From the NCBI RefSeq assembly GCF_004917065.1, contig NZ_SSYA01000001.1:433001-497000 (forward strand): a DNA stretch of 64,000 nt, in the 5' to 3' direction. A program made the position numbers and the translations under genes. The DNA is from Geomonas ferrireducens. GTDB taxonomy: Bacteria > Desulfobacterota > Desulfuromonadia > Geobacterales > Geobacteraceae. Below, piece after piece: positions 8,870 through 10,399 of the stretch (position 1 is the first letter of the stretch; each line of letters begins with the position of its first letter). The notes below the pieces were generated by a model that saw only the letters and a list, made by a program, of their open reading frames with translations, did not search any database and had not been told where the DNA came from.

Positions 8870-8898
8870 TTGACTTTGACATTTTCGCATGATATCAG
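8870..8898 (+). promoter_or_regulatory. Possible promoter before the Ala-rich leader ORF
   Basis: TTGACT (8870-8875), 17 bases, TATCAG (8893-8898). Transcription would then start close to the leader ATG at 8906, making the leader nearly leaderless. A TATACT at 8909 is a better -10 but would start after that ATG. The true start needs mapping. Confidence 0.35.
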
Positions 8899-8905
8899 AG
8901 GCGTC

Positions 8906-8986
8906 ATGTATACTAACAGCGTTACATCACGTGGCATCGTCCACGCAGCAGCAGCGGCCAGAAACTTCCAGAGCCGCCACTGCTGA
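8906..8986 (+). CDS. Putative alanine-rich leader peptide (26 aa)
   Basis: A short frame, ATG at 8906, with AGAGG four bases upstream. It reads MYTNSVTSRGIV, then His, five consecutive Ala (GCA GCA GCA GCG GCC, 8945-8959), then RNFQSRHC and TGA at 8984. The Ala run forms the 5' arm of a hairpin, and a strong terminator follows 26 bases after the stop. This is the arrangement expected for a ribosome-mediated attenuator sensing charged alanyl-tRNA, and the next gene is an aminotransferase. The peptide itself would have no function beyond ribosome stalling. Evidence is architecture only. Confidence 0.6.
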   Translation: MYTNSVTSRGIVHAAAAARNFQSRHC

Positions 8987-9042
8987 TTAGAAAACAAAAG
9001 ATTTCTACTAAAGGCCGTGGGGGACCCCCACGGCCTTTTTTT
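8946..9042 (+). promoter_or_regulatory. Putative transcription attenuator (pause hairpin / antiterminator / terminator)
   Basis: Region 1 (8946-8958, over the Ala codons) can pair with region 2 (8973-8985): 6 bp, two mismatches, 5 bp. Region 2 bases 8974-8980 can instead pair with region 3 (9017-9023), 6 of 7 positions. Region 3 is part of the terminator stem 9013-9023/9025-9035, followed by seven T (9036-9042). A small TAGAAA/TTTCTA stem (8988-8993/9002-9007) would be nested inside the 2:3 structure. Stalling at the Ala codons would cover region 1, free region 2 to pair with region 3 and disrupt the terminator. Confidence 0.6.
9013..9042 (+). terminator. Intrinsic terminator in the aminotransferase leader
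   Basis: GGCCGTGGGGG (9013-9023) pairs with CCCCCACGGCC (9025-9035), followed by a seven-T tract. It sits 52 bases upstream of the aminotransferase ATG, i.e. inside its leader rather than after a gene on that strand only. Confidence 0.85.
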
Positions 9043-9094
9043 ATACAAAATCCGCACGAACAACGGCTGCATACATACCATCAGGGGGAAAGAG

Positions 9095-10399
9095 ATGCGC
9101 AACGAAATAGTTACTCCCGGCGCGGGAGAACTTACCTACGAAATCCGAAACATCGTCACCGTGGCCGAGAAGGTGCAGCGCTTCGGCGTGAAGATCAACT
9201 GGGAGAACATCGGTGACCCCATCGTCAAGGGTGAGAAGATCCCGCTCTGGATGAAGGAGATCGTGGCGGCAGAGGCGATGAACGACGACAGCTACGCCTA
9301 CTGCCCGACGCGCGGCGTCCTCGAGACCCGCGAGTTCATCTGCAGCATCACCAACAGCCGCGGCGGCGCGCAGATCACCCCGGACGACATCATCTTCTTC
9401 AACGGTCTCGGCGACGCCATCGCCAAGGTGTACGGGAACTTGAGGGCGGAGAGCCGCGTGCTCATGCCCTCCCCCACCTACACGACCCACTCCATCGGCG
9501 AGGCGGCCCACGCGAACGCCGTCCCGGTCTGCTACCGCCTGAAACCCGAGGACAACTGGTACCCCGACATGGAGGACCTCGAGTGCCACGTGAAGTACAA
9601 CCCGCAGATCTCGGGCATCATGCTCATCAACCCGGACAACCCGACCGGGATGGTGTACCCCCCCGAGGTGCTCAAGCAGATCGTGGCGATCGCCAAGAAG
9701 TACGACCTGTTCCTTATCGCGGACGAGGTGTACGGCAACATCGTCTACAACGGCGAGCACACCGTTCCCATCTCGGACGTGATCGGCGAGGTCCCGGCCA
9801 TCGCCATGAAGGGGATCTCCAAGGAGCTGCCGTGGCCCGGATCGCGCTGCGGCTGGATCGAGGTCTACAACGGCGAGCGCGACCCGCGCTTCAAGAAGTT
9901 CGTCAACTCGATCCTCTCCACCAAGATGAACGAGGTCTGCTCCACGACGCTGCCGCAGCGCTGCCTCCCCGCCGTGATGAAGCACCCGGAGTACCACAAC
10001 TACCTGAAGGAGCGCATCACCCGCTACGAGAAGATGAGCAACATCATGTACGAGGCGCTCGCGAAGGTGCCCGAGCTCTCGGTGAACCGGACGAACGGCG
10101 CGTTCTACATGGCGGTCCCCTTCAAGAAGGGGGTGCTGAACGACACCCAGAGCCTCCCCATCGCGAACCCCGAGGTCCGCGCCCTAGTGGAGGGGATCGT
10201 GAACCAGCCCGGAGTGGCCCCGGACAAGCGCTTCGTCTACTACATCCTCGCCCACACCGGGATCTGCGTGGTGCCGCTCTCCTCCTTCAACACCGAGCTT
10301 CTGGGCTTCCGCGTGACGCTCCTTGAGCGCGACGAGGAGGAGTGCCGCAAGATCTACCGCACCCTCACCGAGAACATCGCCGCCTACCTCGCATCCTAG
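9095..10399 (+). CDS. Class I/II PLP-dependent aminotransferase, probably alanine-forming
   Basis: A 434-residue fold-type I aminotransferase. PLP-binding features are clear: the NPDNPTG segment at 179-185, the DEVY motif at 210-213, the Schiff-base Lys243 in GISKELPWPGSRCGW, and Arg251. This GISKxLPWPG form is characteristic of one subgroup of bacterial aminotransferases annotated as pyridoxal-phosphate-dependent; AlaA-like enzymes have SKxxxxxGxRxGW. The ATG at 9095 follows AGGGGGAAAGAG; the longer frame starting at 9017 begins inside the terminator and is excluded. Alanine as product is inferred only from the Ala-codon leader upstream. Transcription ends at a terminator 30 bases downstream. 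Confidence 0.9.
   Translation: MRNEIVTPGAGELTYEIRNIVTVAEKVQRFGVKINWENIGDPIVKGEKIPLWMKEIVAAEAMNDDSYAYCPTRGVLETREFICSITNSRGGAQITPDDIIFFNGLGDAIAKVYGNLRAESRVLMPSPTYTTHSIGEAAHANAVPVCYRLKPEDNWYPDMEDLECHVKYNPQISGIMLINPDNPTGMVYPPEVLKQIVAIAKKYDLFLIADEVYGNIVYNGEHTVPISDVIGEVPAIAMKGISKELPWPGSRCGWIEVYNGERDPRFKKFVNSILSTKMNEVCSTTLPQRCLPAVMKHPEYHNYLKERITRYEKMSNIMYEALAKVPELSVNRTNGAFYMAVPFKKGVLNDTQSLPIANPEVRALVEGIVNQPGVAPDKRFVYYILAHTGICVVPLSSFNTELLGFRVTLLERDEEECRKIYRTLTENIAAYLAS

Follow-up and report, generated by a model that had tools for sequence, protein, structure and literature searches.

The gene for a PLP aminotransferase of Geomonas ferrireducens is, very probably, governed by a ribosome-mediated transcription attenuator which would sense charged tRNA-Ala and so control an alanine-forming enzyme. 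The reading frame of a short leader, its Ala codons, a terminator, the pairing of regions 2 and 3, a promoter and the target gene all support this interpretation, which follows the 1:2, 2:3, 3:4 layout given in the preliminary description. The stretch analysed (the window) comprises 64,000 nucleotides. In it, the leader region sits between a gene with a weak SH3-domain match and the gene of the 434-residue aminotransferase, and contains the following elements:

8870 to 8898, + strand: predicted promoter, with TTGACT at 8870-8875, 17 nt, and an extended -10 TGA-TATCAG (-10 at 8893-8898)
8906 to 8986, + strand: leader-peptide ORF, 26 codons and stop, ATG to TGA, probably leaderless; sequence MYTNSVTSRGIVHAAAAARNFQSRHC
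8945 to 8959, + strand: five Ala control codons within region 1, GCA GCA GCA GCG GCC
8946 to 8958, + strand: region 1, the 5' arm of hairpin 1:2 in the predicted fold
8973 to 8985, + strand: region 2, the 3' arm of hairpin 1:2 and 5' arm of the antiterminator
9012 to 9023, + strand: region 3, the 3' arm of the antiterminator and 5' arm of the terminator
9010 to 9042, + strand: intrinsic terminator, stem 9010-9038 (13 pairs), then a T run
9095 to 10399, + strand: PLP aminotransferase of the PRK06855 family (NF005334; 760.8 bits, cut-off 443), the proposed regulated gene

According to the mechanism that we propose, transcription would begin at or slightly ahead of the leader ATG, and a ribosome would translate the Ala-rich peptide. 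With ample Ala-tRNA the ribosome would reach the stop codon and place its footprint on region 2; region 3 would then pair with region 4, leading to termination at 9010-9042. When Ala-tRNA is scarce, the ribosome would stall within the Ala run and leave region 2 free to pair with region 3 while region 4 is still to be transcribed, and the polymerase would read through into the aminotransferase gene. We infer transcription start, translation, stalling, termination, alanine specificity and the substrate of the enzyme from sequence.

The five consecutive Ala codons described earlier within a 26-codon ORF are indeed there. They lie in hairpin 8946-8958/8973-8985, as had been proposed, which by our own reading has 11 of 13 pairs and forms part of the fold predicted for 8906-9042 (-54 kcal/mol, z -6.9). 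The ORF length of 26 codons holds for the window and is a minority length, since 15 of the 21 Geomonas-type leaders have 21 codons and end ahead of region 2. The early stop codon of most Geomonas-type leaders is lost in the window and in L002, L003 and L008, so that the window-type peptide continues through region 2. The suggested alternative pairing of CCGCCAC (8974-8980) with GTGGGGG (9017-9023) shows 6 of 7 pairs; a longer duplex, GCCGCCACTGCTG:AGGCCGTGGGGG, amounts to -14.2 kcal/mol; when the upstream stretch is shuffled, 4 of 200 sequences reach this value. Region 2, GCCGCCACTGCT, is without differences among the 21 Geomonas-type leaders. The strong terminator reported after the leader was likewise found, with a 13-pair stem at 9010-9038 and a T run. 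By itself it is not rare, as shuffles of the terminator region hold a mean of 0.6 such sites. An Ala run of at least five was seen in 0 of 20000 mononucleotide shuffles of the leader ORF. The run alone is not decisive either, because the window, both strands counted, has 10 places with five GCN triplets in a row; it is conservation that decides.

The aminotransferase was found in all 58 relatives searched. Immediately ahead of the orthologue, 50 of them have an Ala-rich ORF with 4 to 13 Ala codons and then a terminator. In G041 the leader lies 1.1 kb upstream of the aminotransferase, ahead of an inserted ORF of 316 residues (L178:1539-2486, - strand), which has no Pfam match at E 0.001. Seven relatives (G035, G037, G038, G044, G048, G054 and G056) have no leader in the 420 nt upstream that were read. 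Among 80 named loci the leader motif was found in 50 and is missing in 30, two of which have just 41 and 121 nt of upstream sequence. The Ala codons, whose absence from relatives had been named as a refuting case, are conserved in the order and beyond. The enzyme of the window shares 98% identity with its counterparts in Geomonas edaphica and G. oryzae. Its leader belongs to form B (Geomonas-type), known from 21 sequences of Geomonas, Citrifermentans, Geomesophilobacter and two MAGs, with the peptide ...HAAAAAR and an uninterrupted run of 4 or 5 Ala in each of the 21. Form A has the peptide ...AARAISAAAxxAAGLPAA and was studied in sets of 29 sequences, selected by the Ala-rich ORF, and 54 sequences, selected by the CGAGC motif; the alignment of the latter (A4) is therefore no test of CGAGC invariance. 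In one Geomesophilobacter-type leader (L021:2861-2999, - strand) the form A nucleotides CACGAGCT are kept in a different frame and the Ala run is in-frame, which looks as if paired indels had shifted the frame.

A generic consensus scan returned no promoter. For comparison, 108 distinct upstream regions were taken, and the 75 with a motif anchor were counted. The hexamer 17 nt after TTGAC-N begins with TAT in 62 of these 75 leaders, and the leader ATG, searched for 0-18 nt past the assumed -10, lies 6-9 nt past it in 70; the promoter-distance rule went wrong in L035, L057 and L087, where the ATG or the promoter that it chose is spurious. A transcription start downstream of 8959 had been considered as a further refuting case; the conserved predicted promoter instead lies upstream of the Ala run. 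The AGAGG at 8897-8901, previously taken for the ribosome-binding site of the leader ORF, is unlikely to act as such, because 4 nt separate it from the ATG and part of it falls within the predicted -10 (8893-8898). The gap between -10 and ATG is short and leaves little Shine-Dalgarno space, and the leader ORF of Geobacterales is therefore predicted to be leaderless or nearly so. In other orders, by our own reading, the 5' region of several leaders is longer and includes a Shine-Dalgarno-like stretch.

That the leader is translated is suggested by its frame. When the ATG is set by promoter distance alone, its frame is that of the Ala motif in 74 of 75 leaders, and the spacing from ATG to motif differs among leaders by in-frame length changes. 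Ala codons vary synonymously: in form A the fourth codon past CGA is GCC/GCA/GCG/GCT, and in other orders GCA/GCG/GCC are found ahead of CGA (29 of 30 rows, those with CGA). Over the 23 codons of form A third positions have a variability of 0.89 bits versus 0.78 bits at the others (L024, L026, L053 and L138 are left out of the codon-variation set for indels); so small a difference is what one would expect if RNA pairing constrains the third position too. Ala makes up 32% of residues in 74 leaders (L035 excluded) versus 6.5% in 80 downstream enzymes, with 21% in form B and 36% in form A.

Conservation of the alternative 2:3 pairing, lack of which had likewise been named as a refuting case, was found on an alignment of eight pairs, where 89.8% of cells are paired as compared to 30-53% when the arms are slid. 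In form A the antiterminator consists of region 2 CTGCCCGCTGCC and region 3 GGCCGTGGGCAG, with one near-constant mismatch. For the eight pairs its covariation score is 0.221 versus 0.047-0.111 slid, and 11 of 500 shuffles reach 0.221; two-sided pair changes in them are no commoner than in shuffles (393/500). Support from the shuffle controls is modest; taken on twelve pairs it is weaker, with 153 of 5000 shuffles reaching the observed value. In the terminator, 6 of 20 predicted pairs are kept despite two-sided changes (alignment A2). The usual region 3 of other orders is GGCCATGGGCA, facing a region 2 of TGTCCATTGCC or a similar sequence, and the mismatch sits at the same position. A leader's own arms pair better than the mean with the arms of the other clade in 44 of 54 Geobacterales and 24 of 29 leaders of other orders (L212 excluded); judged from these alignments, the differences in region 2 between Geobacterales and other orders are matched by differences in region 3. 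Duplex tests on single sequences are weak (mean z -1.8 for Geomonas-type leaders and -1.1 for others), and several match shuffles.

The effect of the ribosome was modelled on the window RNA preceding region 4. With a ribosome in the Ala run the predicted energy is -17.9 kcal/mol and region 3 is upstream-paired with a probability of 0.78. A ribosome that has reached the stop codon leaves -3.7 kcal/mol and a probability of 0.61. In the absence of a ribosome the probability is still 0.66, so that region 3 would stay largely paired upstream, although hairpin 1:2 is present in the predicted fold. Hence the modelled pairing probabilities of region 3 differ little by ribosome state, whereas the folding energies differ. 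In equilibrium folding of the window the terminator is favoured in all ribosome states, so that the choice between terminator and antiterminator would have to be kinetic, as in the classical attenuators.

We built two covariance models, R1 from form A alone and R2 with other orders added, still without form B. Of the 141 genomes of the order, 80 have one strong R1 match apiece, at 71 bits or more; many of these 80 belong to or neighbour the training set. R1 recovers 8 of 21 form B leaders at E 0.001. By our own count, 38 of the 141 genomes have neither a strong R1 match nor a form B leader. In the genome of the window the leader is the sole R1 match (E 2.3e-4, window 8933-9043) and ranks first with R2 at 36.6 bits, a small margin over the runner-up at 31.6 bits; neither model matches it at E 1e-6. 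The weight of the match lies in its position and not in its score, since chance matches of like score occur in other genomes.

Across the class, R1 matches 124 of 277 genomes at E 1e-6; the match in G056 was rejected as a chance match. Of these genomes 41 are outside the order (own count), and the loci of 30 were fetched. All 30 have an Ala-rich ORF with 7 or more Ala (L207 from GTG only), and 29 precede the orthologue; the remaining contig ends too early. Five further class-level R2 matches all precede it as well. At the level of the phylum R2 matches 21 of 395 genomes at E 1e-6, and of 7 matches outside the class 6 stand ahead of the orthologue, whose identity is 59-62%; DRASDAAAAAAWLC is an example of their leaders. 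One match of the later set of 12, L232, does not precede that gene. Overall, the same gene follows 40 of the 42 covariance-model matches that were fetched from outside the order. We also read 20 off-site, displaced or weak R1 matches, leaving out weak ones in G094, G031, G075 and G012. Two are true leaders, L178 (displaced by the inserted ORF) and L181. The other 18 (49.3 bits or less) have no leader of this type; at least 14 of them, by our own reading, are places where an Ala/Lys-rich ORF ends ahead of a terminator. The next matches of R2 in the genome of the window, L242 and L243, have no Ala leader. There is therefore no second target gene among the matches read.

A further constant feature is the Arg codon CGA ahead of Ala codons. 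An in-frame CGA GCN occurs in all 29 leaders of the form A set that was selected on the Ala-rich ORF and not on the motif, in 29 of 30 other-order leaders, found by a model containing the motif, and by our own reading in 4 of 6 leaders outside the class; examples of this rare codon with its third base fixed are L022:1326-1458 (+ strand) and L200:1037-1173 (+ strand). In the downstream genes CGA makes up 3.2% of 1892 Arg codons. The CGA-Ala core is lost in form B, the window included, and in L221, and the Ala run is retained. Pairing of CGAGC with a downstream complement was considered and rejected: complements occur in 7 of 54 leaders versus 18.4 expected, and in other orders in 9 of 29 versus 9.5. 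As these counts are not above expectation, base pairing does not explain the invariance of CGA.

The near-constant Arg-Ala core could also be taken as a nascent-peptide arrest signal that stalls the ribosome via the exit tunnel on a metabolite and leaves the RNA switch unchanged. CGA GCN in every form A leader of the 29-sequence set and in all but one of the other-order leaders fits such an arrest, but the core is gone in Geomonas-type leaders, the window included, and in L221 while the Ala run stays, and the third base of CGA is fixed beyond what a peptide need demand; we consider arrest improbable. Still less probable is a riboswitch or protein-binding RNA ahead of the terminator, with the ORF as a mere by-product. 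Invariant nucleotides that include third codon positions (CGAGCT in form A) would be natural for an RNA of this kind. A by-product ORF, however, would hardly keep its reading frame in 74 of 75 leaders, change its Ala codons synonymously, take up in-frame length changes between ATG and motif and keep a constant spacing between promoter and start codon, and Rfam is without a match.

The smallest probability of all falls to chance, that is, a GC-rich ORF with an Ala run before the ordinary terminator of the upstream gene. Runs of five GCN at 10 places of the window speak for it, and so does the fact that such terminators are not rare; the arrangement is nevertheless conserved at the same gene in the order and beyond, and we deem chance excluded. 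Attenuation by charged tRNA-Ala remains the preferred reading. A bolder version, which we offer only tentatively, is that this may be the first alanine-specific leader-peptide attenuator, an old element common to several orders and to families outside the class and tied to one gene family, with the invariant rare CGA just ahead of the Ala control codons as a built-in ribosome timer and a start that turned leaderless in Geobacterales. The invariant CGA would offer a handle on how ribosome and polymerase stay in step.

Rfam 15 gave no match in the window at gathering thresholds. Ten related loci, of which nine carry the leader, were without a match up to E 1 as well. An alanine attenuator was not found in the accessible parts of open-licence papers, including a term search of PMC2965389; it is apparently undescribed, and priority is not certain. 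The trp, his, leu and thr attenuators, as treated in passages of PMC7298713, share with the present leader a short ORF bearing a codon run for one amino acid, mutually exclusive antiterminator and terminator, and an enzyme gene downstream; they differ from it in that here control would be by alanine, with one enzyme gene family among the matches read and no match in Rfam. The same passages (PMC7298713) state that the trpL attenuator RNA of Sinorhizobium meliloti begins at the ATG of the leader ORF, as predicted for the Geobacterales leader. That system concerns tryptophan in Alphaproteobacteria, whereas here several other-order leaders have a longer 5' region. Cys-rich upstream ORFs of mycobacteria, candidate attenuators found by comparison in a paper on leaderless transcripts, whose role is there called speculative, are likewise short and enriched in one amino acid (PMC4633059); they differ in using cysteine, and no terminator switch is mentioned in the passages seen of that paper. 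If our interpretation is true, alanine joins the amino acids sensed through leader-peptide attenuation, and a regulatory RNA family absent from Rfam is defined that can be tested in Geobacter relatives.

The downstream enzyme passes the curated cut-off of PRK06855 (NF005334; 760.8 vs 443 bits). It is the best match in its genome to the PRK08363 alanine aminotransferase model (NF006230), though far below that cut-off (190 vs 534 bits). Its best solved sequence relatives are 1xi9 (putative transaminase, E 1.6e-48) and 4cvq (glutamate-pyruvate aminotransferase AlaA, E 4.5e-42), from which its own family, PRK06855, is separate. The AlaA of 4cvq is the E. coli enzyme. From these relationships the enzyme likely makes alanine, and under the attenuator model the PRK06855 family would gain a likely physiological role, alanine supply. 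The genome of the window also encodes an alanine dehydrogenase (L240:1492-2604, + strand; TIGR00518, 496.7 bits), a second possible route to alanine.
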